A stretch of 64,000 bases of DNA from Pigmentiphaga sp. NML080357. GTDB taxonomy: Bacteria; Pseudomonadota; Gammaproteobacteria; Burkholderiales; Burkholderiaceae_B. A program made the translations under genes and the position numbers. The notes under the pieces were generated by a model that searched no databases, was not told where the DNA came from, and worked only from the letters and a program-made list of their open reading frames with translations. Location of the stretch: assembly GCF_002188465.1 (NCBI RefSeq), contig NZ_NINW01000025.1, positions 62,001 through 126,000 on the forward strand, read 5' to 3'. Of this stretch, positions 6,941-37,172 are shown piece after piece; the first letter of the stretch is position 1; every line of letters begins with the position of its first letter.

Positions 6941-11200
<4,260 letters not shown>

Positions 11201-19546: not shown

Positions 19547-21139
19547 TCAGGCTCTTCCCGGGCGCGAGCGACGCCGGGCCGGCGCGCCGGCGCCGTGGAC
19601 TTCCAGCTGCGAGCGGTAAGCCTCCTGCAGTTCCTGCTTCTTGACCTTTCCCAGCGGCGTGCGGGGCAGGCCGTCCACGAACATGAACTGGCCCGGAACC
19701 TGGCCGGCCGGCAGGCGGCCACGGCAGAACTCCGCGATGGCGGGCAGGGGCGGCGCAAGGCCGTCGGGGACCAGCACGGCCAGCAGCGCCTCTCCGGATA
19801 CGGGATCGGGCACGCCCACCACCGCGGCCTCGGCAATGCCGGGGCACTGGCACAGGATGTCCTCGACCGTCTTCGTATAGACGTTCATGCCGCGCGCGGC
19901 GACCACTTCCACCTTGCGGTCCAGGATGTAGAGAAAGCCGTCGTCGTCGATGCGGCCGATATCGCCGGTATGGAATGCTGCCTGGCGGAAAACCCGGGTC
20001 TCCTCCTCGGGAAGGCCGAGATAGCCGTCGGCGACCTGCGGTCCCGACACGACGATCTCGCCGGTCCCACCGGCCGGCACCTCGTTGCCGGCATCGTCGA
20101 GCAGCGTGAGCCGCGTGCCGGGCAGGACCCTGCCGGCCGCCTTGAGCAACTCGGGGCGATCCGTCACGGCCCGGCGGTGCGCCGCCTCGTCCAGGATGGC
20201 AATGTAGGGCGAGGTCTCCGTCAGGCCATAGCACTGGTGGAAACCGGCGTGCGGGAAGGCGGCCATCGCGGCGCGCAGGGTGGGCTCGTCCAGCGGCGAG
20301 GTGCCATAGCTGATCAGGCGCAGGCTGCGCAGGTCGTAGCGGTCGACGGAGGCTTCCCTGAGGATGCGGACGATCATGCCAGGCAGCAGGCTCGCGATGG
20401 TGACGCCGTGGCGCTCGATGGCATCGAGCACGTCCTCGGGGGAGGCGTCCTTCAGGTAGACGTGCGCGCCTCCGAACATGCTGACCACGGTCGCCTTGAG
20501 ATCCGTCGAGTGATACATGGGCGAGACATGGAGATAGATGTCCTCCGGCGCGGGTGCCATCACGCGGGCGAGCTGCAGCGCGTTGGCGACGATGTTGCGG
20601 TGGGTGAGCCGGACTCCCTTGCCGCGGCCGGTGGTGCCGCCGGTATAGAGACACAACGCAAGATCGCCTTCCCGTACCGGATGCGGCGCGGCCGGTCGCG
20701 CCTCGGCCAGCAGGGCGTCCGTGCTTGGAATGCCGGAGGCGTCGGGAGCGGCGCCCACGCAGACGGCTCGCCCGCGCCATGGGGCAAGCTGCGCCTGGTC
20801 CAGCAGGTAGGCGAGTTCCTCGTCCACCATCAGCATCCGGCAGCCCGACTGCTCGAGCATCCAGGCGATGTCGCCGCCGGTGAGCCGGAAATTCATGGGA
20901 ATCGGCACGATGCCGGACCAGTACCCGCCCAGCAGCAACTGGGCGTGCGAGACGGAGTTCCGGCAAAGCGTGGCGAACCGCTCGCCCGGATGCAGCCCCA
21001 GCGACCGAAGCATGCCGGCGTTGCGTGCGACGCGCTCGATGAGCTGCCTCCAGCTGAGGCTGCCGGCCGACGCATGGATCGCCGCCCGGTGCCCATGCGC
21101 CCGGGCCGTGCTCTGCAAGAGGTCGGGAAGCGTCAGCAA
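19547..21139 (-). CDS. Acyl-CoA/aryl-CoA ligase 1 (AMP-forming, ANL superfamily)
   Basis: A 530-residue AMP-forming ligase that would activate a carboxylic acid to its CoA thioester. The P-loop YTGGTTGRGKG is at 165-175, YGLTETSP near 304-311, and the C-terminal catalytic lysine is K498 in LGKVKKQ. It is a paralogue of ligase 2 (28391-29938). The hinge motif differs: ligase 2 has the canonical DRKKDMVITGGENVY, whereas here 407-421 reads DRKVEVVAARGMNVY, losing the hinge acid and the double glycine. Activity or specificity may therefore be altered. It is the last gene of the nine-gene minus-strand cluster, 63 bp after the UbiD gene. Confidence 0.85.
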   Translation of the reverse strand: MLTLPDLLQSTARAHGHRAAIHASAGSLSWRQLIERVARNAGMLRSLGLHPGERFATLCRNSVSHAQLLLGGYWSGIVPIPMNFRLTGGDIAWMLEQSGCRMLMVDEELAYLLDQAQLAPWRGRAVCVGAAPDASGIPSTDALLAEARPAAPHPVREGDLALCLYTGGTTGRGKGVRLTHRNIVANALQLARVMAPAPEDIYLHVSPMYHSTDLKATVVSMFGGAHVYLKDASPEDVLDAIERHGVTIASLLPGMIVRILREASVDRYDLRSLRLISYGTSPLDEPTLRAAMAAFPHAGFHQCYGLTETSPYIAILDEAAHRRAVTDRPELLKAAGRVLPGTRLTLLDDAGNEVPAGGTGEIVVSGPQVADGYLGLPEEETRVFRQAAFHTGDIGRIDDDGFLYILDRKVEVVAARGMNVYTKTVEDILCQCPGIAEAAVVGVPDPVSGEALLAVLVPDGLAPPLPAIAEFCRGRLPAGQVPGQFMFVDGLPRTPLGKVKKQELQEAYRSQLEVHGAGAPARRRSRPGRA

Positions 21140-21178
21140 GCGTGGACTCCCGTCACGTCGAGGTACATCGAATGAAAG

Positions 21179-21198
21179 CCTGCGCGTAAGCGCGCAGG
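21179..21198 (-). repeat. Hairpin between ubiD-like gene and ligase 1
   Basis: CCTGCGCG (21179-21186) and CGCGCAGG (21191-21198) form a perfect 8-bp stem with a 4-base loop in the 63-bp gap. No T run follows on the minus strand, so it is not a classical terminator; it could be an mRNA-processing or stabilising stem within the operon. Function is inferred only. Confidence 0.45.
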
Positions 21199-21202
21199 AG
21201 GT

Positions 21203-22615
21203 CTATGCCTCGCGCCACGAGCCGGGGGCAATGTCCGATCTTACCGCCTCGACGTCGACCGCATCGCTTCCCGGCACGCCGATGCGCAGGAACTGTTCCG
21301 GCGGGGCGTCGACCGGCTTGGTGGCGTCCAGTCCCAGCTTGGATCCGATCCCGCCCCGCGACGTGGGGTCCAGCCTGGAGGCCCGGCAGTTGCCCACGAC
21401 GACCAGGTCCCGGTCCGCCTGGAAGCGCGTGGCGACCGCCCATTCGACCTCCTGCGGATCATAGATGTCTATGTCCTCGTCCACCACGATGACCTGCTTG
21501 ACGTCGTGATGCATGGCGAAGGCGCTGAAGATGACGTTCTTGGCGCTGCCTTCGTGCAGCTTCTTCATTTGCACGTACAAATGGTAGCGGCCGACCCCGC
21601 CGGGGGCCAGGTGCACGTTCGTCACGTTGGGAAAGATGCGCTGCATGGTCGTGAGGAAACTGGCTTCCCGCGCGACCGCGCCAAGCAGGATGTGCTCCGT
21701 GCCGCCGCCTATGATGGTGTGGAATAGCGGCGATCGCCGGTGGGTCACGGCATCGATCTCGATGACGAAGCGGTCGCCTCGCGGCCCGTAGTACTGCGTG
21801 AATTCCCCGAACGGACCCTCGGGCTCGCGCACGTTGGGCAGGATGCGTCCCTCGAGCACGATCTCGGCCTCGGCCGGAACGCGCAGCTCATTGGTCAGGC
21901 ACTTGACGACGCGCACCGGCTCGCCCCGCAGCGCGCCGGCGACCTCGAGCTCGTCCTGGTCCATGGCCACGATGGCCTGCGACGCCATGAGCGTGAGCGG
22001 ATCCACGCCGATGGCGATCGCGATCGGCAAGGGCTTGCCGGCTTTCTCGCAGAGACTCAGGAAGGTGCCGGTGTCGCGCGAAGAGACCGAGACGCCCATC
22101 CGGTTTCCGCCCTTCAGGTGGCACCGGTTGATCGACACGTTCTGCCGGCCGGTGTTGGGATTGCTGCTGATCAGCAGGCCCGCGGTGAGATAGGCGCCTC
22201 CGTCGTGCTCGTTGTGTATCGGGGCGGGGAGCAGCCTGCCGATGTCGATATCGCCGCGATGGATGACCTCCTGCACCGGCGCCTCGCCCACTTCTTCGCA
22301 AGGCATCGGGTTGCCCACCGCCTGCTGATAGCGCTTGAGCAGGCCGGCGGGGGCCACGCCCATCGCGTCGGCGATCCACTCGCGCCGCGACACGATGCCC
22401 GAGAGCACGGGGATGCGATGGCCTTCCGGGGAAGGAAAGAACGTCGCCTGGCGGCCGTCCAGCTTCGAGGCGATGGCGGCAATTTCAAACCGCAGGGACT
22501 TGCCTGCCTGGATGAGCGCCAGCCTGTCGTTGGCGGCCAGGCGGTCCAGCCATCCGCGCAGCGTCGTGACGGGCGGGGAGCCGTTGCGTGGTCCGGTGTG
22601 TGCGGCATCTGCCAT
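21203..22615 (-). CDS. UbiD-family prenylated-FMN decarboxylase
   Basis: A 470-residue UbiD-family enzyme, which (de)carboxylates aromatic or alpha,beta-unsaturated acids with prenylated FMN. The catalytic Arg-Glu-Glu triad appears as R164 in INRCHLKGGNRMG and E266/E271 in EPEGPFGEF; the 102- and 5-residue spacings match the 173/277/282 spacing of fungal Fdc1. The N-terminal region starts at residue 17 with TLRGWLDRL. The prenyltransferase UbiX must come from elsewhere. In this operon it would fit as the last step, removing the carboxylate of a hydroxybenzoate formed by the neighbouring aldehyde dehydrogenase. ALDH lies 30 bp upstream. Confidence 0.88.
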   Translation of the reverse strand: MADAAHTGPRNGSPPVTTLRGWLDRLAANDRLALIQAGKSLRFEIAAIASKLDGRQATFFPSPEGHRIPVLSGIVSRREWIADAMGVAPAGLLKRYQQAVGNPMPCEEVGEAPVQEVIHRGDIDIGRLLPAPIHNEHDGGAYLTAGLLISSNPNTGRQNVSINRCHLKGGNRMGVSVSSRDTGTFLSLCEKAGKPLPIAIAIGVDPLTLMASQAIVAMDQDELEVAGALRGEPVRVVKCLTNELRVPAEAEIVLEGRILPNVREPEGPFGEFTQYYGPRGDRFVIEIDAVTHRRSPLFHTIIGGGTEHILLGAVAREASFLTTMQRIFPNVTNVHLAPGGVGRYHLYVQMKKLHEGSAKNVIFSAFAMHHDVKQVIVVDEDIDIYDPQEVEWAVATRFQADRDLVVVGNCRASRLDPTSRGGIGSKLGLDATKPVDAPPEQFLRIGVPGSDAVDVEAVRSDIAPGSWREA

Positions 22616-22645
22616 GGAGCACTCCTGAGGGCGAGAGAAAAGGAA

Positions 22646-24088
22646 CTAGAAGTGGGAGGTTTGCACGACGAGGCGGGTGGTCTGGTAGGCTTCGAGACCT
22701 TCGGTGGCCCCCTCGCTGCCGTAGCCGCTTTCCTTGACACCGCCCCACGGCGTTTCCGGCCCGTTGATGAAAAACGTGTTCAGGCCCAGCATGCCCGTGT
22801 CCATCCTCTCGGAAAGCCGCAACTGCCGGCTGCCGTCGCGAGTGAAGGCGTAGGCCGCCAATCCGTAGGGAAGCGCGTTCGCCTGTTCGATGACGGCTTC
22901 TTCGTCGCGAAAGGGCAGCAGCAAGGCGATGGGGCCGAAGGGCTCTTCGCGCATGGCGCGGGCCTGGGCCGGCACGTCCGAGAACACCGTGGGGGCGAAG
23001 AAGTTTCCTGCCCGGTCGAGACGCTCGCCGCCCGCGACCAGCCGGGCGCCGGCGTATTTCAGGTCGGCCACCGCGTTCTCGATCGCCGCCAGCCGTCGCG
23101 TGTTCGCCAGCGGTCCCATCTGCGTTCCCTCGTCCAGGCCGGGGCCGATCTTCAGCCCCGCGGCCGCCTGGGCGAAGGCGCCGGCGAAGTGTTCATAGAT
23201 GCGCTCGTGCACGTAGAAGCGGGTCGGCGATACGCACACCTGGCCGGCGTTGCGGTATTTGCTGGCGACGCACAGGCGCACGACCGCGTCCACGTCGACA
23301 TCGTCGAAAACCAGGACCGGAGCATGGCCGCCCAGCTCCATGGTGATGGGCTTGATCGCTGCGGCGGCCAGCCCAGCCAGCTGGCGTCCGACCGCGGTCG
23401 AGCCGGTGAAGGACACCTTGCGGACGACAGGCGATGCGATGAGGTGGCTGGAAATCTCGGCCGGCACGCCGCATACCAGGTTGATCACGCCGCGGGGCAC
23501 GCCGGCTTCGGCGAATGCGCGGACCATCTCGATCGCCGTGGCCGGCGCCTCTTCGGGAGCCTTGAGTATGCAGCAGCATCCCGCCGCCAGGGATGCCCCC
23601 AGCTTGCGGGCCGGCGTGGTTGCCGGGAAGTTCCAGGGCGAGAAGGCGGCGGCCACGCCTATCGGGCGTTTCAGGACGTTCTGCCGGATGCCGGCGGGTC
23701 CGCCGACGATGCGCCCGTAGCCTCGCCGTCCCTCCTCGGCCATCCATTCGATGTGCGCGGCGGCGCCGTCGACCTCGACGAGGGCCTCGGCAAGCGGCTT
23801 GCCTTCCTCGCGCGTCAGGAGACGCGCGATGCGGTCCCGGCGGCCGCGCATCAGTTCTGCGGCGCGCCGCAGGATGCGGCCGCGTTCCACTGCCGGGGTC
23901 GTGCTCCAGCCCGGCCAGGCCGCGGCCGCCGACTGCAGCGCCCGGTCCAGGTCCGCCGGCGTGGCCGAGGGGAGCTCTCCCATGGGCTGCCCGGTGGCCG
24001 GGTCGACGACCGGGATGGTGTCGCGGCCCTCGCCGCCTATCCATTGGCCGTCGATGTAGAGTTTCAGATCCGGATGTTCGATGGACAT
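22646..24088 (-). CDS. NAD(P)+-dependent aldehyde dehydrogenase
   Basis: A 480-residue ALDH superfamily enzyme oxidising an aldehyde to its acid. Key residues: N153 in SPWNFP, the Rossmann motif FTGSTAVG (228-235), general base E251 in MELGGHAP and nucleophile C285 in NAGQVCVSP. Overall it resembles the succinate-semialdehyde/benzaldehyde dehydrogenase branch, where substrate range is wide. It lies between the DpgC-like gene (34 bp upstream) and the UbiD gene (30 bp downstream). In the inferred pathway it oxidises the aryl aldehyde made by a thiamine-diphosphate decarboxylase. Confidence 0.9.
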   Translation of the reverse strand: MSIEHPDLKLYIDGQWIGGEGRDTIPVVDPATGQPMGELPSATPADLDRALQSAAAAWPGWSTTPAVERGRILRRAAELMRGRRDRIARLLTREEGKPLAEALVEVDGAAAHIEWMAEEGRRGYGRIVGGPAGIRQNVLKRPIGVAAAFSPWNFPATTPARKLGASLAAGCCCILKAPEEAPATAIEMVRAFAEAGVPRGVINLVCGVPAEISSHLIASPVVRKVSFTGSTAVGRQLAGLAAAAIKPITMELGGHAPVLVFDDVDVDAVVRLCVASKYRNAGQVCVSPTRFYVHERIYEHFAGAFAQAAAGLKIGPGLDEGTQMGPLANTRRLAAIENAVADLKYAGARLVAGGERLDRAGNFFAPTVFSDVPAQARAMREEPFGPIALLLPFRDEEAVIEQANALPYGLAAYAFTRDGSRQLRLSERMDTGMLGLNTFFINGPETPWGGVKESGYGSEGATEGLEAYQTTRLVVQTSHF

Positions 24089-24122
24089 GCATGCCTCTCT
24101 GGGGACGCGGTCCGGAAAGCCG

Positions 24123-25559
24123 TCAGAGCTTGCGCTCTTTGGCGTTCCAGTTCTTTTCGAGGTTGTTGATGAGGTCTTCGCTCAGGTGGCAGAAGGCCTG
24201 CTCCCGCGCGTAGGTGACGAGGTATTGCCGAAGGACCTCCATGGGCTCGGCCTGGGCGCGCAGCGCCTTGCGGTTCGCGCTGATGCTGACCATGCCGGCG
24301 CCCAGCGCGTTGGCCGCGCAGCGTTCGACCGCCTGTTCGATTTCCCCGGGCGGCACCACTTCGCTGACGAGCGTGCGGCCCTCGGGAGTCTCCACCTTGA
24401 ACAGCTTGTCGAACATGATGGCCTGGCGCGCCAGCGCCTCGCCCGTGAAGCGCGGCAGCCGCAGGTTGGCGAGGCCGGGAATGATTCCTTCCTTGCGCGC
24501 AGGCAGGCTGAAGAAGGAGCCGGATTCCGCGATCACGTAATCGGCCACGAGCAGCAATTGGCACCCGCCGCCTATCGCGAACGTTTCGATGACCGCCACC
24601 CACGGTTTCTCGACGGTGGATTCGGGCTCGTCCAGCGGTGCGTCCAGGCTGTCCGGCCCGGGGGGCAGGATGCCGCGGTGGACCTTGTTGAAGAAGCCCA
24701 TGTTCTTGGTCAGGAAACCCAGGTACGATTTCTTGCCGCGATAGATGTGGGTCAGGTTGATGCCGGCCGAGAACACGCGCCGGCCGGCATACTTCGGGTG
24801 GTCGACCACGCCCCCGCGCATGACGCCCAGCCGCAGGTCGGGATGCATGAGGATGAGGTCGGTCGCCATCTCAAAGGGCACCATGGTGGTGTCGTCCTCG
24901 GCATTCAGGTAGCGCAGGTTCTGGAACGTCAGGAATCCGGCCTGGGCCTTGGCCTCGACCAATGCCTTGTCCAGCTGGACGCGCCCGGTCTTGCGGAATT
25001 CGTCCAGGTATTCGAACGACTGCGGCAAGGGCCTGAGCATGGTTCGTATCAGGTGCGAGCCGATGGCCCGGTCGGTAAAGAGGTGGCTGAAGAAAAGGCC
25101 CTGGTTGATTTCCAGCCCGTCCTTGTCCTTTTGCAGCAGTTCGCTTTCCGCCCGCAGTTCCTCTTCGCTGGGCAGGATGCCGGGCAGCCGCGCCGCGGCT
25201 TGCCAGGCCAGTTCATCCACTCGCAGCGGCCGCGTCCCGTTGTTCGTCAGGTCCCGGTAAAGGGGGTGGGCATGGTGCCGGAAGAAGCGCCACGCTGCGT
25301 CGGCCATCAGGTGGAAGATCACGTGCGCCACGTCCTTCTGCGTGGCGTCGCGGGCCGATTTGAGCGGAAGGCGGCTCAGCAGCTGCCGTCCCTGGCGGCA
25401 CACGGATCGGACCAGGGCCGAGTCCTCATCCAGCGTCGACGGCGCCGGCCGTTCCTCCCATGCCCGGGCGGCTTGCAGGAACTGCGAGGTCGCGTCCCGC
25501 GGCAACCCCGACGCGTCGATCCGTTGCTGGCGTTCGTTCAGGGGAATGTGTTCGATCAT
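24123..25559 (-). CDS. DpgC-like cofactor-free arylacetyl-CoA dioxygenase (crotonase fold)
   Basis: A 478-residue crotonase-superfamily protein with a long helical N-terminal region (about 1-195), unlike ordinary 260-residue enoyl-CoA hydratases. The domain layout and the motifs FSAGINL (263-269), VEKPWVAVIETFAIGGGCQLLLVAD (broken here: VEKPW 316-320; AIGGGCQ 328-334), FSLPARKEGIIPG and NLRLPRF match DpgC, the 3,5-dihydroxyphenylacetyl-CoA 1,2-dioxygenase of glycopeptide biosynthesis, which uses O2 without metal or flavin and yields an arylglyoxylate plus CoA. AGINL and GGG supply the oxyanion hole. Here it sits in a catabolic operon, between the thiamine-diphosphate enzyme and ALDH genes. 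Substrate is inferred from homology only. Confidence 0.78.
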   Translation of the reverse strand: MIEHIPLNERQQRIDASGLPRDATSQFLQAARAWEERPAPSTLDEDSALVRSVCRQGRQLLSRLPLKSARDATQKDVAHVIFHLMADAAWRFFRHHAHPLYRDLTNNGTRPLRVDELAWQAAARLPGILPSEEELRAESELLQKDKDGLEINQGLFFSHLFTDRAIGSHLIRTMLRPLPQSFEYLDEFRKTGRVQLDKALVEAKAQAGFLTFQNLRYLNAEDDTTMVPFEMATDLILMHPDLRLGVMRGGVVDHPKYAGRRVFSAGINLTHIYRGKKSYLGFLTKNMGFFNKVHRGILPPGPDSLDAPLDEPESTVEKPWVAVIETFAIGGGCQLLLVADYVIAESGSFFSLPARKEGIIPGLANLRLPRFTGEALARQAIMFDKLFKVETPEGRTLVSEVVPPGEIEQAVERCAANALGAGMVSISANRKALRAQAEPMEVLRQYLVTYAREQAFCHLSEDLINNLEKNWNAKERKL

Positions 25560-25619
25560 GTCATGCTCCGTTCATGCAATGGATGGGACCGCGGGGTGCG
25601 CCGGACGAGGGGCCGCATC

Positions 25620-27302
25620 TCAGCGGTGTCGTTCGCTTCGGGCGCGCAGCTCGCTCAGCGTCGTGCGCGGCGTGATGGCCTCGGGGTCGATGCGCAGTTC
25701 GATCAAGGCCCCGTGCGGGGCGGCGAGCGCACGGTCGAAGCTCGCCGCGAAGTCTTCCGTCTTTTCCACCGTGTAGCCGGCGATGCCATAGGCGGCCGCC
25801 AGCGCGGCGAAGTCCGGATTTTCCAGCGTCGTGCCGAAGACCCGGCCGGGATAGTGGATCTCCTGGTGCATGCGTATGCTGCCGTACATGCCGTTGTTGA
25901 CGACGATGAAGATCACGCGCAAGCCGTACTGCTTCGCGGTCGCCAGTTCCTGGCTGTTCATCAGGAAGCAGCCGTCGCCGGCAAAGCAGACCACTCGCCG
26001 GTCCGGGTGGATGGCCGCCGCGGCGCAGGCGGCCGGAATCCCGTAGCCCATGACGCCGCTGGCGGGCGCGAGCTGGGTGCGAAAGCCGCGGTATTGGAAG
26101 AAGCGGTGGACCCAGCCGGTGTAGTTGCCCGCGCCATTGGTGACGATCGCGTCGGCGGGCAGCCGGTCGCGCACGTGCCGGACGACTTGGGCCAGGTTCA
26201 AGCTCCCCGGCATGGAAGGGGGGACGAGCGTCGCGCAATAGTCTGCATTGGCGGAGCGCGTCCAGTCGGCCCACGCCGGGTGCCGTGGTGGCTCGAGGCT
26301 CGCCGCGGCGAGCGCGAATTCGGCCATGCCCGCATTGATGGCCAGGTCGGGCCGATAGACCTTGCCGAGTTCGCCGATATCGGGATGGACATGGACGAAC
26401 CGGGCCTCCATCGAGGGGACGCCGAGCAAGGTGTACCCCGCGGTCGTGGTTTCGCCCAGGCGCGCGCCTACCGCGAGGATCAGGTCGGCCTGGCGAACCC
26501 GCTGCGCCAGCGATTCGGCAATCCCGACCCCGATGTCGCCGGCATAGCCGGGATGCGCATTGTCGAACAGGTCTTGCCGGCGAAAGGCCGTGCCGACGGG
26601 CAGCTGGAAGGCCTGCGCGAAAGCCTGGATGGCCGCGCAGGCTTCGGCGCTCCATCCGCCTCCGCCCAATATCATGAGCGGGCGCCGTGCCAGCTCGACC
26701 AGTTCGCGCAGGCGTGCCAGGTCGGCAACGCCGGGCTGCGGTTGTACCGGCACGAAGGGCCGGCTGTCGGGCAGGTCCAGGTGCCGGTAGAGCACGTCCT
26801 CGGGCAAGCCGACGACGACGGGGCCCGGGCGGCCCGAGACGGCGGCCTGGAACGCCCGGTTCATCATCTCGGGCAAGCGTTCCAGGTGGTCGACCTGCGT
26901 GACCCATTTCGCCAGCGAGCCGAATACGCTGCGCAGGTCGATCTCCTGCCAGGCCTGGCGCTCCAGCAGCCGGGTGCCCACCTGCCCCACGAGCAGGACC
27001 ATGGGCGTCGAGTCCTGGCTTGCGGTGTGCACGCCGATGCTGGCATTGGTCGCGCCCGGTCCGCGGGTGACCAGGCAGACGCCGGGCTTGCCGGTCAGTT
27101 TTCCGTAGGCCTCCGCCATGTGCGCCGCCGCGCCCTCCTGGCGGCAGACGATCGTCCTGATGGCGTCGCTGGACGCGTGCAGCGCGTCCAATGCGGGCAG
27201 GAAACTCTCGCCGGGTACGCAGAAGGCGTGGTCGACGCCGTGTATCTTGAGCGCATCGACGAGGATCTGGCCGCCGGTTCGCAGGGAAGGGACTTGCAAC
27301 AT
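25620..27302 (-). CDS. Thiamine-diphosphate enzyme (acetolactate synthase/benzoylformate decarboxylase superfamily), second
   Basis: A 560-residue three-domain ThDP enzyme. The activating glutamate is E56 in CRQEGAAAHMAEAYG, and the cofactor motif runs from GDG (442-444) to NN (469-470). GPGATNA at 81-87 and the central transhydrogenase-fold domain (about 190-330) resemble acetolactate synthases, but many 2-ketoacid decarboxylases share this layout, and class-specific residues do not decide. Placed immediately upstream of the DpgC-like oxygenase gene (60 bp), it is a good candidate to decarboxylate an arylglyoxylate to the aldehyde. Direct evidence for that substrate is absent. Confidence 0.82.
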   Translation of the reverse strand: MLQVPSLRTGGQILVDALKIHGVDHAFCVPGESFLPALDALHASSDAIRTIVCRQEGAAAHMAEAYGKLTGKPGVCLVTRGPGATNASIGVHTASQDSTPMVLLVGQVGTRLLERQAWQEIDLRSVFGSLAKWVTQVDHLERLPEMMNRAFQAAVSGRPGPVVVGLPEDVLYRHLDLPDSRPFVPVQPQPGVADLARLRELVELARRPLMILGGGGWSAEACAAIQAFAQAFQLPVGTAFRRQDLFDNAHPGYAGDIGVGIAESLAQRVRQADLILAVGARLGETTTAGYTLLGVPSMEARFVHVHPDIGELGKVYRPDLAINAGMAEFALAAASLEPPRHPAWADWTRSANADYCATLVPPSMPGSLNLAQVVRHVRDRLPADAIVTNGAGNYTGWVHRFFQYRGFRTQLAPASGVMGYGIPAACAAAAIHPDRRVVCFAGDGCFLMNSQELATAKQYGLRVIFIVVNNGMYGSIRMHQEIHYPGRVFGTTLENPDFAALAAAYGIAGYTVEKTEDFAASFDRALAAPHGALIELRIDPEAITPRTTLSELRARSERHR

Positions 27303-27338
27303 CGGATGCTCCGGATGCGGATGGATGGAGATGGCGGG

Positions 27339-28325
27339 TCAGTCGGCGGTCGCGCCGGATTCCTTGATGACCTTCGACCAGCGCCGGGCCTCGGCGCGCA
27401 CGTGCGCCGCCATTTCCTCCGGTGTGCTGGGGTTGGCTTCCAGGCTGACTTCCTTGAGCTTCTCCACGAAGGACGGGTCGGTCAGGACGGTGTTGAGCGC
27501 CTGGTTCATGCGGGCGACGACGTGCCTGGGCAGGCTGGCCTGCCCGACCATGCCGAACCAGACGCTGGTGGTGAGGTTCGGATAGCCCGCCTCGGTAACC
27601 GTGGGAACGTCGGGAAGCTGGAACCAGCGCTGCTTGGAGGTCACGGCAATGGGGCGGACCTTGCCGGCCTGGATCTGCGGCAGCAGCTGCGGAAGGTTGT
27701 CGGTGTTGAACTGGACCTCGCCCGCCAGCAGGGCCTGCATGGCCGGGCCGTTGCCGCGGTAGGGAACGTGCAGGATTTCGATCTTGGCCAGCGTCTTGAT
27801 CAATTCGTTCAGCAGATGGCCCGTGCTGCCTATGCCGGCGCTGGAGTACGCCACCTTGCCGGGATGGGCCCTGGCATGCTCGATGAGCTCGCTGAGCGAA
27901 GTCACCTTCAGCGACGGCGAGACCACGATGGCGTTCGGCGTCTGGGTCGCGAGCCCGATCGAAACAAAGTCCTTTTCGGCGTCGTAGCCCAGGTCCGTCT
28001 TGTACAGATAGGGATTGATCGACAACTGGGACGGCGTGATCATCATGAAGAAATGATCGTCGGGCGACGATTTGGCGAAATACGCCGCTCCCACCGAACC
28101 GGCGGCGCCGCCCCGGTTCTCGACCACCACCGGCTGGCCCAGGGTTTGCGACAGTCTCTGCGCGATGAGGCGGCTCGCGATGTCGGTCGAGCCGCCGGCG
28201 GCGTAGGGAACCAGCAGCCGGATCGGCCTTTGCGGCCAGGCCGGTTCTGCGGCCTGGGACGACGCCGGGACGAGCAGTGCCAGCAGGATGCCGGCCCACC
28301 AGGTGCGTTGACGGAATCGGTGCAT
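27339..28325 (-). CDS. Bug-family periplasmic solute receptor
   Basis: A 328-residue Bug receptor. The ATG at 28325 (MHRFRQRTWWAGILLALLV) has GAGGAG upstream and begins a signal peptide ending near SSQAAEPAW. PYAAGGSTDIASRL and ENRGGAAGSVGAAY are the two family loops. It lies between ligase 2 (65 bp) and the second ThDP gene (36 bp), inside the operon, so it probably captures the aromatic acid consumed by the pathway. The membrane partner is not encoded nearby. Confidence 0.9.
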   Translation of the reverse strand: MHRFRQRTWWAGILLALLVPASSQAAEPAWPQRPIRLLVPYAAGGSTDIASRLIAQRLSQTLGQPVVVENRGGAAGSVGAAYFAKSSPDDHFFMMITPSQLSINPYLYKTDLGYDAEKDFVSIGLATQTPNAIVVSPSLKVTSLSELIEHARAHPGKVAYSSAGIGSTGHLLNELIKTLAKIEILHVPYRGNGPAMQALLAGEVQFNTDNLPQLLPQIQAGKVRPIAVTSKQRWFQLPDVPTVTEAGYPNLTTSVWFGMVGQASLPRHVVARMNQALNTVLTDPSFVEKLKEVSLEANPSTPEEMAAHVRAEARRWSKVIKESGATAD

Positions 28326-28390
28326 GGAAGTCTCCTCGTTATCGATTTCTTCGGGCGGCATGGCGCCCATGCCGGCGGTCGGCCGGCGTG

Positions 28391-29938
28391 TCAGCGGGTT
28401 TCCCTGGTCTCGAGATACGCTCGCCGCAACTCGTCCTTGCGGACCTTGCCGAGCGACGATCGGGGCAGCGCGTCGACGAACATGAATTGCCGCGGGATCT
28501 TGTATCCGCCGAGATGGCGCCGGCAGAACTCGATGATCTCCGCCGGCGCCGGGCGCGCCGCCGAAGGCACGACGACCGCCAGCAGCGCCTCGCCGTACTT
28601 GGTGTCCGGTATGCCGACGACGGCGGCATCGGCCACGTCCGGATGCAGGGCCAGCACGGATTCCACTTCCCGCGTGTAGACGTTCTCGCCGCCTGTGATC
28701 ACCATGTCTTTCTTGCGGTCGAGAACGTGCAGGTAGCCGTCCTCGTCCAGGCGGCCGATGTCGCCCGTGTGCAGCCAGCCGTCCCGGAAGGTCGCCGCGT
28801 TTTCCTGCGGCCGGTTGTGATAGCCGGCCGCCACCTGCGGCCCGGACACGGCGATCTCGCCCGGCTGGCCGGGCGCGGCCTCGTTGCCGTCATCGTCGAG
28901 AAACCGGATGGAGGTGGCGGGCAGCAGCCGGCCGGCGGACTTCAGGAGTTCGGGCCGTTCGCGCAGCGCGAACCGATGGGTCGCCTCGTCGAGGATCGCC
29001 AGGTAGGGAGACGTTTCCGTCAGGCCATAGCACTGGTGGAAGCCGACGTGAGCGAAGCGGTCCATGGCCTTGCGCAGCGATTGTTCGTCCATGGGCGCGG
29101 TGCCGTAGCTGATCAGCCGCAGCCGGGACAGGTCGTGGCGGTCCACGCCGGCTTCCTTGAGAATGCCGATGATCATGGTGGGCACCAGGCTGGCGATCGT
29201 GACGCCGCGCTGCTCGATGGCCTCGAGCACGCCCCGGGGCGAGAATTCGCTCAGGTAGGTATGGCCGCCTCCGAACATCGTGACGACGGTGGCCTTCAGG
29301 TCGGTGGAGTGGAACATCGGCGAGACGTGCAGGTAGACGTCGTCCGGGCAAGGCGACATCACGCGGGCCAGCTGCAGCGCGTTGGCGACGATGTTGCGAT
29401 GCGTGAGCCTGACGCCCTTGCCGCGCCCGGTGGTGCCGCCGGTATAGAGCAACAGTGCCTCGTCGCCTTCCTGGCAGCCATGGGCGGATGCGCGCGGGCT
29501 GGCACGGAGCAGGTCCGCCATGGTCGCAAGCTCCGCCGACCCGCCCCGCAACCGGACGCGAATGGCCCGCGACCGCCACGAGGCCAGCGGCGGCTGCTCC
29601 AGGAGCGGCATGAAGTCGTCGTCCAGCATGACGGCCTTGCACTGCGCATCTTCCAGCATGGCGGCGATCTCGGCGGGAGCCAGGCGGAAATTCAGCGGCG
29701 CCGGTACGACGCCCGACCAGAAGCCCGCCAGCAGCAACTGGGCATGGTCCACCGAATTGCGGCACAGCGTGGCGAACCGATCGCCGGGGTTCAGGCCCAG
29801 TTCCCGGAGCATGCCGGCGGTGCGGGCCACGCGGTCGAGATAGTCGTTCCAGCTCAGGTCGCCCGACGGATCGATGATCGCCTTGCGCCGGCCGTAGGCC
29901 TGGACGGTGTTTTTCAGTAGATGGGGAAGGGTCAGCAC
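28391..29938 (-). CDS. Acyl-CoA/aryl-CoA ligase 2 (AMP-forming)
   Basis: A 515-residue AMP-forming CoA ligase and the first gene after the operator-bearing promoter at 29972-30026. The P-loop YTGGTTGRGKG, the YGLTETSP motif, the full hinge motif DRKKDMVITGGENVYTREVE and the catalytic lysine in SSLGKVRKDEL are intact, so this is the copy most likely to be fully active. It shares long identical stretches with ligase 1 (for example TGGTTGRGKGVRLTHRN), showing an old duplication inside the cluster. It would activate the imported acid, in the model an arylacetate, to its CoA thioester. Confidence 0.88.
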   Translation of the reverse strand: MLTLPHLLKNTVQAYGRRKAIIDPSGDLSWNDYLDRVARTAGMLRELGLNPGDRFATLCRNSVDHAQLLLAGFWSGVVPAPLNFRLAPAEIAAMLEDAQCKAVMLDDDFMPLLEQPPLASWRSRAIRVRLRGGSAELATMADLLRASPRASAHGCQEGDEALLLYTGGTTGRGKGVRLTHRNIVANALQLARVMSPCPDDVYLHVSPMFHSTDLKATVVTMFGGGHTYLSEFSPRGVLEAIEQRGVTIASLVPTMIIGILKEAGVDRHDLSRLRLISYGTAPMDEQSLRKAMDRFAHVGFHQCYGLTETSPYLAILDEATHRFALRERPELLKSAGRLLPATSIRFLDDDGNEAAPGQPGEIAVSGPQVAAGYHNRPQENAATFRDGWLHTGDIGRLDEDGYLHVLDRKKDMVITGGENVYTREVESVLALHPDVADAAVVGIPDTKYGEALLAVVVPSAARPAPAEIIEFCRRHLGGYKIPRQFMFVDALPRSSLGKVRKDELRRAYLETRETR

Positions 29939-29971
29939 GCCTGCATCTGCCGGTGGGAAACGATGCAGAAA

Positions 29972-30026
29972 ATGATAGAGAGGGGGGCTTGCCGAGACCC
30001 TACCGCCCAGTCCTGCGACCTACCCC
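29972..30026 (-). promoter_or_regulatory. Promoter with direct-repeat operator upstream of ligase 2
   Basis: Read on the minus strand: GGGGTAGGT (30026-30018), 13 bp, GGTAGGGT (30004-29997), 19 bp, TATCAT (29977-29972) as a -10 box, then about 34 bp to the ligase 2 ATG. GGTAGG recurs with a 20-bp period, as in AraC-family operators, and the proximal box overlaps where a -35 should be. The same elements with identical spacings occur at 34014-34068. An A/T-rich stretch and CCGAC precede the box in both. Confidence 0.8.
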
Positions 30027-31026: not shown

Positions 31027-32760
31027 TCAGATCCGTACGACCTTGGCATGCAGGACGGCGGAGCGTCCCGTCTTGACCGCCTGGATGCATCGATCGAGTG
31101 CGGCGCCGACCTGCGCCGGGTCGTCGACGCGTTCGCCATGGGCGCCGAACGCCTCCCCCAGCTTGGCGAAGTCCGCGTTGCCCGGCAGTTCGGCCTCGTA
31201 GGCGTCCTGCCGTCTTGCACTGCCGTCCGGATAGACGCGCAAGGTCGACTCCTTGACCGCGGACCATCCGGCGTTGTCGACGACGAGCGTCAGGATGGGC
31301 AGTCCATAGAAACTCGAGACGGCCAGGACGGAGCTCGGGATGTTGAAGTAGAGACTGCCGTCTCCCACCACCTGCACCGCCATCAGGTCCGGATCGGCCA
31401 GCCGTGCGCCCAGGGCCATGGCCCCGGAGGCGCCGAGCCCGCCGCCGCCGACTCGCACCAGGGTGCCGGGCAGAGGACGGGTGAGCTGTTCCATGAGGGC
31501 GGGGGAGTTGCGCACGGCTTCGTTGAAGACCATGTCTTCGGGCCGCAGGCGCTTGCCGAGTTCCGCGAACAGGAAGTGAGGATTGATCTGGCCCGGCGTG
31601 CCCGGATCGGCGGCCTTGTCCCGCGCCTTGTGCCGGCGCTGCTCGTTCTCGGCGGCGATGCGCGCGTTGCGCGCATCGACCGCACCGGCGAATGCCGGCG
31701 TGGACCTTGCCTCGAGCGCCTCGGCCAATTGTTCGAGGATGCGCGCGCTGTCGCCCTGGATCCGGGCGTTCGCGGGAAAGCTCCACATCGGCGAGGCCGC
31801 CTTCAGCGCGTCGACGTCGACCTGCGCCCAGAACGTGCGGGCGTGCGGCCGGACGTCGCGCGAGAACCAGGGCACGTCCGTGTCCACGAGCAGTCCGACG
31901 TCGGCAGCCTGGATCGAGCCGCCCGGCTGGAACCCGCAGAAATTCGGGCCTTCATGCGATATGTTGTTGACCGGATTCGATTCGAAGACGCGTATGCCGG
32001 CCAGGCGCGCCAGGCGCTCGATGGCCGCCGAGGTACGGCGATTGCGGCCGCCGAACGAGGTGATCAGGATAGGGTGCTCGGCCGCCAGGAGGCGTTCGGC
32101 CACGGTGTCGAGCTGGCGCGGATCGGCGCCAGTGGGAGCGATGGCGCCGAATTGCGCCTCCGGATAGGACTTGACGCGGTCTATCGGCCAGGGTTCGGCC
32201 AGCGTTTCGCGCGGCAGCATCAAGTACACGGGACCGCGGGGCTCGCTCTGCATGAGGGCCTGGGCACGGCGCAGCGCTTCTTTCACCACGATGCCGGAAG
32301 GCAAGGTCCATTCCCACTTGACGAAGGGGCGGACGAGGCTGCCTTGGTCGAACGGCTCCTGGATGTAGTGCACGTAGTTGTCGCGCGTGCCCGGCAGCTC
32401 TCCCGCCGAGGTGAAGGGTGCCTTGCCGGCCATCAGGAGAACGGGCAGGCGGCTGCGGAAGAGGTTGTGCATGGCCATCGAGGCGTTGGCCGTGCCGACG
32501 TCGACGTGGACCAGCACCCCCTGGCCTCGGCCTGTCACCAGGGCGTAGCCCGCGGCCATGTGCGCGGCCGTGTTCTCGTGCGGGCAGCGGATCACCTGCG
32601 GCGCCTTTTCGCCCTGTTCGCGCCGGCGCGCCAGTTCTTCGATGATGGGCGCGTGGTCGGTCCCCATGTTGCAAAACAGGTAATCGACGCCGATCTCCGT
32701 CAGGCCTTCCAGCAGGAAGCCGGCGGTGGTGCGCGTATCGTCTGTGAGAGCGTGCTGCAT
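31027..32760 (-). CDS. Thiamine-diphosphate-requiring enzyme, first
   Basis: A 577-residue ThDP enzyme distantly related to acetolactate synthase. The catalytic glutamate is E62 in CPHENTAAHMAAGYA; the cofactor motif starts GDGSLYFN and ends DN rather than the usual NN. It begins MQHALTDDTRTTAGFLLEGL at ATG 32760. It differs strongly from the second ThDP enzyme (25620-27302), so the cluster has two non-redundant C-C cleaving or forming steps, for example one decarboxylase and one ligase or decarboxylase of a different acid. It heads a transcript divergent from the AraC regulator gene. Confidence 0.82.
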   Translation of the reverse strand: MQHALTDDTRTTAGFLLEGLTEIGVDYLFCNMGTDHAPIIEELARRREQGEKAPQVIRCPHENTAAHMAAGYALVTGRGQGVLVHVDVGTANASMAMHNLFRSRLPVLLMAGKAPFTSAGELPGTRDNYVHYIQEPFDQGSLVRPFVKWEWTLPSGIVVKEALRRAQALMQSEPRGPVYLMLPRETLAEPWPIDRVKSYPEAQFGAIAPTGADPRQLDTVAERLLAAEHPILITSFGGRNRRTSAAIERLARLAGIRVFESNPVNNISHEGPNFCGFQPGGSIQAADVGLLVDTDVPWFSRDVRPHARTFWAQVDVDALKAASPMWSFPANARIQGDSARILEQLAEALEARSTPAFAGAVDARNARIAAENEQRRHKARDKAADPGTPGQINPHFLFAELGKRLRPEDMVFNEAVRNSPALMEQLTRPLPGTLVRVGGGGLGASGAMALGARLADPDLMAVQVVGDGSLYFNIPSSVLAVSSFYGLPILTLVVDNAGWSAVKESTLRVYPDGSARRQDAYEAELPGNADFAKLGEAFGAHGERVDDPAQVGAALDRCIQAVKTGRSAVLHAKVVRI

Positions 32761-33123
32761 GAGTTGGACGCCACCTCCGGGGCATGGGCTGGTCTCGTGG
32801 CGGGATGATAGGAAGCGCCCCCGGGGAGGGGCCATACCATCCAGTCGGATATTGGCGTGCGGCACGGGATCCGCGGCGTGGCAGGCTTCGGGATTGCCCG
32901 GGGGAGAGGCACGCGCATGCCCCGTTCGCGACAGGAAAAATCACCGTGGAGGCGTGGCTCGTGAAAAAAACTGACACGGCCTTCCCACGGCGGCGCGCAT
33001 GGCTGGATCGGCGCTTTTTTTCTGGATATTCTCAAGACCCCGACCAAGGGGCGCAGCGCCGCGCGGCGCTGCCGCGCGGACAAGAACAGGCCGGGAAACG
33101 CGACTCGGACAGCGGAGGCAGGA
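32761..33123. promoter_or_regulatory. 363-bp divergent region between ThDP gene and araC-like gene
   Basis: Both promoters of the divergent pair should lie here. I found no second copy of the GGGGTAGGT/GGTAGGGT operator, no clear terminator and no ORF with family support. A GGAGG at 33113-33117 is the ribosome binding site of the AraC gene. Nothing else can be supported. Confidence 0.4.
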
Positions 33124-33975
33124 ATGACCAAGGCCGTCAGGCTCTATCAAGGCGCTTTCGGGCGTGCGTCCATGCTCGATTCCGACCATGACCTGGTCAC
33201 CCACGCTCATCCGCAATGCCACGTGCTGGTGAAGGTCGCCGGCGCGGACGCCTTCTACAGAGTGCGAGGCGAAACCGTACGGCTATCCGAGGACTCGCTG
33301 GTTCTGGTCAACGCCTGGGAGCCGCATTCCAAGCTGCAGCCGCGGGAGGGCGAGCGCACCACCGTCCTGATCCTCTGCATGGAACCGGCCTGGCTGGCGG
33401 AACACGACCCCCTGCTCTCGGGTAGCGGCATGCCGGACTTCTTTCCCTCTGCCCAGGTGCGGGTGCCGCTGTCCATCCGCAAACTCGTGGACCGGCTGGT
33501 GCTCGAAGTGCTCGGCTCGTCTCCCACCGGCCTGCCCAACCGGGCGGTCGAAGCGGCGCTGTCGGACTTCATGCTCGCGATCACGCACCTCTTCGCGGTG
33601 CGGCGCAACTGGATCGACACCTACAGGCTGAAGATGCGCCATCGTCCGGATGCGCGCATCGCACGGGCAATCCAGTACATCGGGGACCACCTGGACCAGA
33701 CCATTACCTGCGAAGAGCTGGCCGGCCTGCACAGCCTGTCGCGCCAGCATTTCTTCTCGCTCTTCCGCCAGTACACGAACATGTCTCCCATCCTGTACAT
33801 GAACACGCTGCGCATGGAGAGCGCGTTCAAGACACTGACCGAATGCTCGACCTCGGTGAACGTGCTGGCCGACGACCTGGGGTTTTCCGAACCGCATCAT
33901 TTCACGCGTTTCTTCCGCCGCAATCTCGGCATTCCTCCCAGCCAGTACCGGCGGGGCGTCGCGCTGATTGCCTGA
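33124..33975 (+). CDS. AraC-family transcriptional regulator
   Basis: A 283-residue regulator with an N-terminal cupin sensor (THAHPQCHVLVKV around 26-38) and a C-terminal AraC double helix-turn-helix (about 178-280: ITCEELAGLHSLSRQHFFSLFRQ and the LADDLGFSEPHHFTRFFRR motif). GGAGG lies 6 bp before the ATG. It is divergent from the minus-strand catabolic cluster. Direct-repeat operators of AraC-like 20-bp period lie upstream of ligase 2 and of the Bug gene at 34171, so this protein is the best candidate activator of both, responding to the pathway's substrate. Confidence 0.9.
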   Translation: MTKAVRLYQGAFGRASMLDSDHDLVTHAHPQCHVLVKVAGADAFYRVRGETVRLSEDSLVLVNAWEPHSKLQPREGERTTVLILCMEPAWLAEHDPLLSGSGMPDFFPSAQVRVPLSIRKLVDRLVLEVLGSSPTGLPNRAVEAALSDFMLAITHLFAVRRNWIDTYRLKMRHRPDARIARAIQYIGDHLDQTITCEELAGLHSLSRQHFFSLFRQYTNMSPILYMNTLRMESAFKTLTECSTSVNVLADDLGFSEPHHFTRFFRRNLGIPPSQYRRGVALIA

Positions 33976-34013: not shown

Positions 34014-34068
34014 GGGGTAGGTTTCCGCACTTGCGGGTAGGGTGCCGCAACACGCGCGTGCCTATATT
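34014..34068 (+). promoter_or_regulatory. Promoter with direct-repeat operator upstream of Bug gene
   Basis: GGGGTAGGT (34014-34022), 13 bp, GGTAGGGT (34036-34043), 19 bp, TATATT (34063-34068) as -10. The two boxes and all spacings are identical to those at 29972-30026 on the other strand, while the intervening bases differ. The Bug ATG is about 100 bp downstream. The araC-like gene ends 39 bp upstream. Confidence 0.8.
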
Positions 34069-34170
34069 TTCGTCCAGGCCTGCATGCCGTCCGGCATGCG
34101 GCGACATCATCGAACGGGACAGCGCCTTCCCGCGAAGGCTTCGAGAGCCCGAGACATGGAGACGACGACA

Positions 34171-35136
34171 ATGCACGCGATGCGCATGCTCATGATGGCG
34201 GGCGCCCTGGCTATCCCCGCCGTGCCGGCTGCCGCGGCCGAGTTCCCGGCCAGGCCCATCCGCCTGGTGGTGCCTTTCGAGGCGGGCGGAACCATCGACA
34301 CGCTGGGCCGCGTGGTCGCCGCCCAGATCGACAAGCAGTCCGAATGGGGCATCGTGGTCGATAACAAGGCGGGCGCGAATGCCTTGATCGGCACCGCCGA
34401 TGCGGCCAAGGCCGCGCCCGATGGCTATACCATCCTGCACACGTCGCCGTCGATCGTCATCAACACGTTCATACACAAGAAGACGCCCTACGACCTGTCC
34501 AGGACGTTCGTGCCCGTTACCAACCTGGCCGTCGGAACCGGCTACCTGCTGGTCGTGCGGCAAGGGCTGCCGGTCCATGACGTTGCAGGGCTGATCGAGC
34601 TGGCGCGCAAGAAGGAGCTCACGTACGGATCCCCGGGCATCGGCAATGCCCTGCACCTGGCGGCGGCGGGGTTCGCCAAGAAGGCCCGCGTCGACATGCT
34701 GCACATCCCGTTCAAGGGCAGCGCGAGCTCGCTCAATGCCATCGCCGCCGGGCAGGTGGACGTCATGATGCTGTCCCCGCCCACGGTGACGCCGTACGTC
34801 CAGTCGGGCAAGATCCGCCCCATCGCGTTCACCGGCGAAAGCCGGTCCAAGGAATTTCCCGATATCCCGACTATGAAAGAAGCGGGTATCGACGACTTCG
34901 TCGTCATGGGGACCTGGGCGGGGTGGTTCGCGCCGGCCGGCACCCCGCCCGAGGTGGTGAACAGGATCGCCGCCGAGGTCGCCAAGGCGCTCAAGGCGCC
35001 CGAAGTCGCGAGCGTGCTGGAGAAGGGAGGCTTCGAGCCGGACGGCCGTCCGCCCCAGGCATTCGCGGAATTCGTGCGCCAGGAAACCCGGCGCTACGGA
35101 CAGATCGTCAAGGACGCCGGCATCACGCCGCAGTAG
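34171..35136 (+). CDS. Bug-family periplasmic solute receptor
   Basis: A 321-residue Bug receptor. The ATG at 34171 (MHAMRMLMMAGALAIPAVPAAAA) has GGAG at 34158-34161; an in-frame ATG at 34156 is possible. After the signal peptide come PFEAGGTIDTLGRV and NKAGANALIGTA, slightly divergent versions of the family loops. Its promoter carries the same operator as that of ligase 2, so it is inferred to serve the arylacetate-type pathway to its left. It converges with a LysR gene 19 bp away. Confidence 0.88.
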   Translation: MHAMRMLMMAGALAIPAVPAAAAEFPARPIRLVVPFEAGGTIDTLGRVVAAQIDKQSEWGIVVDNKAGANALIGTADAAKAAPDGYTILHTSPSIVINTFIHKKTPYDLSRTFVPVTNLAVGTGYLLVVRQGLPVHDVAGLIELARKKELTYGSPGIGNALHLAAAGFAKKARVDMLHIPFKGSASSLNAIAAGQVDVMMLSPPTVTPYVQSGKIRPIAFTGESRSKEFPDIPTMKEAGIDDFVVMGTWAGWFAPAGTPPEVVNRIAAEVAKALKAPEVASVLEKGGFEPDGRPPQAFAEFVRQETRRYGQIVKDAGITPQ

Positions 35137-35155: not shown

Positions 35156-36085
35156 TCAAAACGTCCACCCTTGGCTCGCCGCCCAGGCCGTGATCGATTG
35201 CTCGGTGTCGCGGCCTTCCTGCTGCAGCCAGTCGCAGAAGTCGCCGGTCAGCGTCTGCGCCTTGAGCGTCGCGGCGCTGTTGGCGTAGTACGTGCGCCGC
35301 TTCACGCCCAGGGGACCGAAGGGCACGCACAGTCGGCCGGCGAGGATCTCGTCGATGGCCAGGAACAGCGGGACCATGGCCAGCCCGAGCCCCTCGGAGG
35401 CCGCCTGCAGGGCGAAGTACATCTGTTCGAAGCCCAGCGTATTGGCGGGCTTCAGGCCCGGAACGCCGGCGGCTTCCAGCCATTCGCTCCACGCGTAGGG
35501 TTCCGTGGCATAGCTGATGAGGGTATGCGCTTCGAGGTCGCGCGGGTGCGCGAGCCTCAGGCTCTCCTGCAGGTCGACGTGACAGATGGGGGCGATGATC
35601 TCCGTCATGAAGGGAATGGACCGGCAATCGTCCAGCGGCCCGTGCTGCCCCCGGATGGCAATGTCGTAGGTGTTCTCCTGGAAATTCGGCGGCGCCAGCG
35701 AAGTGGTCAGGCGGACCTCGACGTCCGGACGCCTGCGCTGGAATACGGACATGCGCGCGATCAGCCAGCGCATGGTGAAGGTGGGCGGGGCATTGACGCG
35801 CAGCACGATGGGCGCCGCCTGCTGCATGACATACATCGATGCCGTGGCCAGGCGGTCGAACACCGCCGAGACCTCGTTGAGATAGCCGCGGCCGGCCTCG
35901 GTGAGCGTCAGCTGCGAGGGCGCGCGGTGAAAGAGCGCGACGCCCAGCCACTCCTCGAGCAGGGCCACCTGGCGGCTGACTGCGCCGTGCGTGACGTTCA
36001 GTTCCGCCGCGGCCTTGGTAAAGCTCACGTGGCGCGCGGCCACCTCGAACGCCCGCACGGCGTTGAGCGGGGGCAGCTTTCTCAT
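35156..36085 (-). CDS. LysR-family regulator (GcvA-like), paralogue of 18605-19534
   Basis: A 309-residue LysR regulator with the N-terminal winged helix MRKLPPLNAVRAFEVAARHVSFTKAA... and HGAVSRQVALLEEWLG, and an effector domain from about residue 90 (RVNAPPTFTMRWLIARMSVF). It is nearly alignable end to end with the LysR at 18605-19534. It is divergent from the molybdenum hydroxylase operon starting at 36280, with a palindrome at 36111-36131 between them, so it probably controls that operon. Confidence 0.9.
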   Translation of the reverse strand: MRKLPPLNAVRAFEVAARHVSFTKAAAELNVTHGAVSRQVALLEEWLGVALFHRAPSQLTLTEAGRGYLNEVSAVFDRLATASMYVMQQAAPIVLRVNAPPTFTMRWLIARMSVFQRRRPDVEVRLTTSLAPPNFQENTYDIAIRGQHGPLDDCRSIPFMTEIIAPICHVDLQESLRLAHPRDLEAHTLISYATEPYAWSEWLEAAGVPGLKPANTLGFEQMYFALQAASEGLGLAMVPLFLAIDEILAGRLCVPFGPLGVKRRTYYANSAATLKAQTLTGDFCDWLQQEGRDTEQSITAWAASQGWTF

Positions 36086-37170: not shown

Positions 37171-37172
37171 CC

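Follow-up and report, generated by a model that had tools for sequence, protein, structure and literature searches.

The DpgC-like gene and its neighbours

We have examined a gene cluster of the soil bacterium Pigmentiphaga sp. NML080357 that includes a gene for a DpgC-like, cofactor-independent oxygenase. All positions are those of the whole 64,000-nt stretch of DNA that was analysed (the window), which lies on a contig labelled C57. The list of open reading frames (ORFs) holds a run of nine genes, all on the minus strand and separated by gaps of 16–103 bp. In order, these encode a thiamine diphosphate (ThDP) enzyme of the PRK08327 type (ThDP1; 31027–32865; 617.6 bits, cut-off 456), a Bug/TctC substrate-binding protein (Bug1; PF03401; 30042–31010), an AMP-forming coenzyme A (CoA) ligase (CoA ligase 1; AMP-binding; 28391–29938), a second Bug/TctC protein (Bug2; PF03401; 27339–28370), a ThDP enzyme of the PRK08199 subfamily (ThDP2; 25620–27302; 863.6 bits, cut-off 539), the DpgC-like protein of 478 aa (24123–25559), an aldehyde dehydrogenase (ALDH; 22646–24088; Aldedh, 508.1 bits), a UbiD decarboxylase of the HmfF clade (21203–22615; TIGR00148, 346.4 bits, cut-off 244.85), and a second AMP-forming ligase (CoA ligase 2; AMP-binding; 19547–21139) that is 61% identical to the first. 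The gap sizes were calculated with a Bug1 start at 31010, which, from the ORF list and the layout in P. humi, is likely to be the true start rather than the listed 31220. The enzyme classes were borne out by family searches (Pfam and NCBIfam) and PDB searches. They agree with an earlier note on this DNA, which had placed its named ORFs at these positions and had recognised two CoA ligases, a ThDP enzyme, an ALDH, a UbiD and a DpgC-like protein. The best PDB matches of CoA ligase 1 (8weu and 8wev; fatty-acyl-CoA synthase, feruloyl-CoA synthetase) indicate no substrate.

The same note had bounded the unit at 19547–30026. Its genes do lie there, but the unit is larger and takes in Bug1, ThDP1, a divergent AraC-type regulator (33124–33975, plus strand, by family search) and, by synteny, molybdenum (Mo) hydroxylase genes from 36280 onwards; the Bug proteins had gone unmentioned. 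The Mo hydroxylase (36280–40098, plus strand) has flavin adenine dinucleotide (FAD), 2Fe-2S and Mo subunits that are CoxM/Fer2/CoxL-like in Pfam, none of which reached a cut-off in the NCBIfam search. Between it and the AraC gene lie a third substrate-binding protein gene (Bug3; 34042–35136, plus strand), assigned by synteny, and a LysR-type regulator gene (LysR2; 35156–36085, minus strand), named by eye.

Searches of genomes with the DpgC-like protein used a threshold of E ≤ 1e-40. Of 398 phylum-sampled genomes 3 gave a match, our own genome counted. The family yielded 4 among 268 genomes, each of them a Pigmentiphaga (11 genomes of this genus were searched), and the class of G287, the genome with the closest homolog outside the genus (54% identity), yielded 10 among 385. 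Within Pigmentiphaga, the protein is 100% identical to that of Pigmentiphaga sp. NML030171, 97% to that of P. kullae K24 and 85% to that of P. humi. The nine-gene run and the upstream AraC and Mo-hydroxylase genes are syntenic in all four genomes with the DpgC-like gene. P. humi retains the Mo hydroxylase, LysR2, Bug3, AraC and the nine genes, and its flank past CoA ligase 2 differs, which marks a boundary of the unit. The ratio of nonsynonymous to synonymous substitution rates (dN/dS) against P. humi is 0.11–0.25 across 13 genes, and the cluster is under purifying selection.

The locus of G287 (L020, 7693–12789) combines its DpgC-like gene with genes for a CoA ligase, an enoyl-CoA hydratase and a short-chain dehydrogenase/reductase, and may represent another catabolic use. 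The 1.9-Mb genome G793 has two DpgC-like genes (L037 and L039), each near an ORF of about 1750 aa. On a Streptomyces xanthii plasmid (L092, 7025–12902), a DpgC-like gene occurs with pyruvate-dehydrogenase-E1-like, hydrolase and aminotransferase genes, flanked by nonribosomal peptide synthetase (NRPS) genes; this is perhaps a phenylglycine route in which the DpgC-like enzyme acts on phenylacetyl-CoA.

Features of the oxygenase, ThDP2 and UbiD

The best PDB match of the DpgC-like protein is DpgC (2np9, E 3.5e-84; also 5kag), the (3,5-dihydroxyphenyl)acetyl-CoA 1,2-dioxygenase of glycopeptide biosynthesis. The proteins are 39% identical and align over nearly their full length (residues 53–466 against DpgC 21–428, 5kag numbering), including the N-terminal helical domain. 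An AlphaFold2 model from six sequences, of modest confidence (mean pLDDT 67.1), has the crotonase fold with this helical domain. Its 19 best Foldseek rows were all DpgC entries (TMq 0.69–0.72), with a TMq of 0.70–0.72 against 2np9. E189, I235, G296, Q299, A319, I324 and G327 are retained, so that the A319–G327 region is common to both proteins, and E189, Q299 and A319 are invariant across a 20-row alignment that leaves out the 100% identical sequence (L009). We take E189, Q299 and the pair I235 and G296 (oxyanion hole) to be active-site positions of DpgC. In the alignment, the protein groups with that of G287, apart from actinobacterial sequences. The title of PDB entry 2pg8 describes the R254K mutant of DpgC with a bound substrate analog, and the same Lys is natural in the Pigmentiphaga protein; the genus thus offers natural homologs with the change of a laboratory mutant.

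Against the NCBIfam DpgC equivalog model (NF042432) the protein scored 375.8 bits, below the curated cut-off of 530, and it is therefore named DpgC-like rather than DpgC. Eight non-Pigmentiphaga homologs are also under this cut-off (325–411 bits). The setting differs from that of DpgC as well, with no antibiotic genes among the neighbours. By a family search of the nine genes of the run only, these belong to families other than dpgA, dpgB and dpgD, whereas dpgA and dpgB neighbour dpgC in two annotated Streptomyces records. In the literature, no catabolic DpgC was among the matches listed for DpgC or its substrate, mostly outside subscription papers and preprints; as this coverage is partial, it is weak evidence for novelty.

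ThDP2 also resembles acetohydroxyacid synthase (AHAS) and 2-hydroxyacyl-CoA lyases. The AHAS motif GARFDDR, whose arginine we take to be an AHAS feature, is not found in ThDP2, which reads GARLGET there. The His70-type motif that we regard as a mark of benzoylformate decarboxylase (BFDC) is likewise not found, the site reading TRGPGATNA. In this motif, and in belonging to the AHAS-like PRK08199 subfamily, ThDP2 differs from the BFDC of the mandelate pathway. The surroundings of 8 of 20 sampled PRK08199 loci, read by eye, were mixed and held no UbiD, so membership of this family says little by itself. A tree built from 23 PRK08199-type sequences and an AHAS outgroup places ThDP2 of the window in one clade (support 0.945) with its counterparts in P. 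humi, in a second operon of the same genome (C45) and in a genome of the same order and another family (G1052). A search of 300 genomes for close relatives of UbiD (E ≤ 1e-130) found seven loci in 6 of them; ThDP2 is present at three of the seven, the window included. Loci L083–L085 resemble hmf clusters by gene content, L083 being only a 5.6-kb contig, and L086 is the seventh.

ThDP1 as the decarboxylase, and a possible further module, were both set aside. ThDP1 keeps the BFDC-type His (VHVDVGTANA) and has a benzoylformate decarboxylase as its best PDB match (90.2 bits), yet it was not found in the C45 or G1052 clusters. A stretch of the window's contig (C57:12–32 kb; L110, 5579–11912) has a partial ThDP match near two UbiD genes, but this is 45% identical to ThDP2 and lies among other genes; by eye, it adjoins kynurenine-pathway-like genes. 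Elsewhere, in G422 (L066, 8300–17942), a PRK08199-type gene (55% to ThDP2) lies near two matches (33–34%) to the mandelate-racemase-like protein of C45.

Among PDB entries, UbiD matches HmfF best (6h6v, 448.7 bits), followed by the indole-3-carboxylate decarboxylase AnInD (219.4 bits), with identities of 48% to PtHmfF and 33% to AnInD. The motifs NVSINR and EGPFGE are present, and we take the catalytic glutamates to lie in the latter. The E-R-E catalytic residues named in PMC8988006 are accounted for by these motifs. UbiD also keeps the HmfF His (H297, taken as residue 296 of chain 6h6v) that is said to set furan specificity (PMC7976604). This His occurs in all eight genome rows and is therefore clade-wide rather than discriminating. 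UbiX, the supplier of prenylated flavin mononucleotide (prFMN), is encoded in the genome. The hmf furan pathway of HmfF, HmfD, HmfABC and HmfE (PMC12064950 and PMC6604932) shares its UbiD clade with the cluster, and its CoA ligase, Mo hydroxylase and ALDH belong to the same broad families. The AraC protein is 42% identical to that of the hmf-like cluster L084. There are also differences. The UbiDs of the window, P. humi and G1052 have the loops GGGT and SSRDTG in place of the PAEM/PAEL and LPRHL(H) of the hmf-like clusters, and the Mo subunits and ligases are 34–36% and 26–32% identical to their hmf counterparts. Furthermore, when the genome was searched with the hmf-type Mo subunit, the Mo large subunit of the cluster ranked second (430 bits, 35%), nearer homologs of hmfA (72%) and hmfD (70%) being located at C24.

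UbiD enzymes generally need a para-hydroxyl group or a heteroaromatic ring, and 3,5-dihydroxybenzoate, with no para-hydroxyl, would be a disfavoured substrate. These features point toward a heteroaryl or dicarboxylic arylacetate as a better fit than resorcinol chemistry, without settling the matter.

Clusters with other possible arylglyoxylate suppliers

The G1052 neighbourhood has orthologs of UbiD (77% identity), ThDP2 (68%), CoA ligase 1 (66%), AraC (60%), the Mo-hydroxylase subunits (57–72%) and Bug3 (53%). DpgC was not found in the G1052 genome (best match 48 bits), nor were ThDP1 and a second CoA ligase in the stretch examined. Between UbiD and AraC lie instead a gene of the dimethyl sulfoxide (DMSO)-reductase family for a Mo-bis(molybdopterin guanine dinucleotide) (Mo-bisMGD) enzyme (921 aa; large subunit at L054, 14929–17694) and a FeS/membrane gene, the next gene in L074, which was named by eye. 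Relatives of the Mo-bisMGD protein occur at 57–65% identity in 8 further genomes of 300, with two more at 33%. Matches to the phenylacetate-CoA ligase PaaK (TIGR02155, cut-off 646.3) lie near them at four of eight loci examined, with 671.4 bits at one and 586–592 at three. A further locus has an IOR-alpha-like gene (271.8 bits, cut-off 650.9), another a ligase 46% identical to CoA ligase 1, and two have neither of these nor PaaK. In-frame TGA flags at some matches of the Mo-bisMGD relatives and hmf homologs are probably terminal stops.

This setting resembles the one expected of PadBCD, described in PMC9765128 and PMC2755013 as the phenylacetyl-CoA:acceptor oxidoreductase of the anaerobic phenylacetate pathway, where phenylglyoxylate oxidoreductase follows it. 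The PadBC-like and DpgC-like enzymes may thus fill the same slot. The logic of converting arylacetyl-CoA to arylglyoxylate would be shared with the pad pathway. The differences are that DpgC is unrelated to PadBCD and uses O2, that ThDP2 and ALDH stand in place of the CoA-forming oxidoreductase, and that UbiD comes after.

The C45 operon of the same genome contains genes for a mandelate-racemase-like protein, an FMN-dependent alpha-hydroxyacid dehydrogenase, a UbiD (52% to that of the window), an ALDH and a ThDP enzyme (62% to ThDP2). The best PDB match of the racemase-like protein is 3bjs (447 bits), and that of the dehydrogenase is an (S)-mandelate dehydrogenase (6bfg, 299.8 bits). The mandelate pathway consists of a racemase, mandelate dehydrogenase, benzoylformate decarboxylase and benzaldehyde dehydrogenase. 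The Pigmentiphaga cluster would share with it the order arylglyoxylate, aldehyde and acid, and C45 joins a mandelate-type run to the ThDP2 subclade and a UbiD; the source of arylglyoxylate there would be an aryl-hydroxyacetate. In contrast to the mandelate pathway, the window offers a DpgC-like gene and CoA ligase genes, and its ThDP2 is of the PRK08199 type. UbiD and ThDP2 are therefore paired with two other possible arylglyoxylate-making genes, and the DpgC-like, PadBC-like and mandelate dehydrogenase enzymes look like interchangeable suppliers of arylglyoxylate.

Proposed pathway and alternatives

From gene content and these comparisons, we consider it probable that the cluster serves the aerobic breakdown of a (hetero)arylacetic acid by way of the DpgC-like enzyme; its reactions, their order and the substrate are inferred. 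Bug-type binding proteins would aid uptake of the acid, and a CoA ligase would form the arylacetyl-CoA. The DpgC-like enzyme, as a proposed arylacetyl-CoA 1,2-dioxygenase, would deprotonate the alpha-carbon, add O2 without a cofactor, and release CoA and arylglyoxylate. ThDP2, the proposed arylglyoxylate decarboxylase, would then yield the aryl aldehyde, ALDH would oxidise this to the aryl carboxylate, and the prFMN-dependent UbiD would remove that carboxyl. Preparing the ring for opening would probably fall to the linked Mo hydroxylase together with the hydrolase- and hydratase-like ORFs beyond it. The order of CoA ligase, conversion of arylacetyl-CoA to arylglyoxylate, ThDP enzyme, ALDH and UbiD had been put forward in the earlier note, and it is supported by the C45 mandelate-type operon and the G1052 PadBCD-like cluster. 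More tentatively, there may be a single ThDP2–UbiD module (joined in some clusters by CoA ligase and ALDH) served by three exchangeable, non-homologous suppliers, namely mandelate dehydrogenase, an O2-independent PadBC-type enzyme and an O2-dependent DpgC-type enzyme. The Pigmentiphaga substrate could then be a five-membered heteroaryl or carboxy-substituted acetic acid, from which UbiD would leave a carboxylate to be processed by the second ligase together with the Mo hydroxylase, as in furoate degradation. The proposed pathway joins enzymes of known kinds in a new way. If it is correct, an oxygenase of antibiotic biosynthesis would have moved into carbon catabolism, and the DpgC-type enzyme would be a functional replacement, within an orthologous cluster, for an O2-independent molybdoenzyme. 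The cluster also provides enzymes with which a route that shortens two-carbon side chains could be tested.

Several observations weigh against this proposal. In the 20-row alignment, the three Pigmentiphaga rows alone have Lys at position 254 and the remaining 17 have Arg; the DpgC-like gene itself is missing from 7 of 11 genomes of the genus. Co-occurrence of the block in other genomes, which the earlier note had named as a test, held for each of the four Pigmentiphaga genomes that have the gene and failed elsewhere: homologs of ThDP2, ALDH and UbiD at 1e-15 were not found at any of 14 DpgC-like loci outside the genus, this absence meaning little at two with short flanks (L013, a 4.8-kb contig, and L012, with about 5 kb upstream). 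A CoA ligase match was present at 4 of the 14. Loci L053 and L087 are in no count, and a partial match (G1095:C31) and a separate G896 match lie outside the locus comparisons. The DpgC-ThDP-ALDH-UbiD block accordingly looks genus-restricted. PRK08199-type enzymes are widespread, with matches at 1e-170 in 102 of 300 genomes, and a UbiD match lies beside one at only 2 of 21 loci outside the window (G1052 and C45, the latter added to the 20 sampled loci). One of the two CoA ligases and one of the two ThDP enzymes have no place in the scheme. ALDH was not found in the G1052 stretch, and the PadBCD-like identity there was read from gene neighbourhood and architecture rather than from similarity to any characterised PadB; a plasmid annotation search with the PadB-like enzyme gave one match, at 28% identity, with no useful name. 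At C45, the ALDH is 33% identical to that of the window and not orthologous. Characterised mandelate racemase (1mdl) matches the racemase-like protein with only 112 bits, and both this protein and the dehydrogenase are under the NCBIfam cut-offs (best models galactonate dehydratase, 200.4 of 311, and L-lactate dehydrogenase, 289.6 of 376). Three hmf-like clusters have UbiDs with 67–69% identity to the C45 UbiD, and the ALDH of one of them matches the C45 ALDH at 72%, so the C45 operon may itself act on a furan.

Four other explanations were weighed. Indole-3-acetate could be degraded through indole-3-glyoxylate, indole-3-aldehyde and indole-3-carboxylate to indole by UbiD, consistent with the rank of AnInD just after HmfF and with the linked Mo hydroxylase. 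We consider this unlikely: UbiD is nearer HmfF, it keeps the positions of HmfF His296 and of Arg304, the latter presumably functional in HmfF, and it has no residue aligned to D169, which PMC8988006 treats as important in AnInD variants. Slightly less likely still is a beta-oxidation-type pathway in which the DpgC-like protein works as a common crotonase, whether hydratase, isomerase or thioesterase, and ThDP2 as a lyase or carboligase. The C-terminal half of the protein matches many enoyl-CoA hydratases, and the likeness of ThDP2 to AHAS and 2-hydroxyacyl-CoA lyases fits such a role, but the near full-length match to DpgC, the retained catalytic residues and the lack of any other beta-oxidation gene in the nine-gene run all argue otherwise.

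The earlier note had favoured 3,5-dihydroxyphenylacetate as the substrate, degraded by the same steps through 3,5-dihydroxybenzoate to resorcinol. This substrate is that of the closest solved relative, and E189 and Q299 are kept, but the missed DpgC cut-off, Lys254, neighbours other than dpgA, dpgB and dpgD, and a UbiD of the HmfF clade, for which a ring with only meta-hydroxyls would be unfavourable, make the resorcinol route very unlikely, and the claim was not upheld. A relic, or a biosynthetic cluster with no catabolic role, is the least plausible reading and highly improbable. DpgC enzymes are known from antibiotic synthesis, and PMC3849588 treats Xanthomonas DpgC as biosynthetic, but the dN/dS values oppose a relic, and a biosynthetic role is opposed by the presence of Bug proteins and an AraC regulator and by the lack of NRPS, polyketide synthase and aminotransferase genes among the nine.

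Promoter and terminator scans of the region stayed at chance level. Beyond the Mo hydroxylase, on the plus strand, lie an alpha/beta-hydrolase-like ORF (40098–40940) and an enoyl-CoA hydratase-like ORF (40989–41723), both named by eye, with no NCBIfam match at 1e-30 found for the latter, followed by a CoxG-like protein gene (PF06240; 41737–42402). Ahead of the catabolic region, genes for ribosomal proteins L11, L1, L10 and L7/L12 and for rpoB and rpoC were recognised by eye at 1–11200. At 48178–52067, a class II aldolase gene and two isochorismatase-family genes lie with LysR- and Bug-type genes, and are possibly another degradation cluster.

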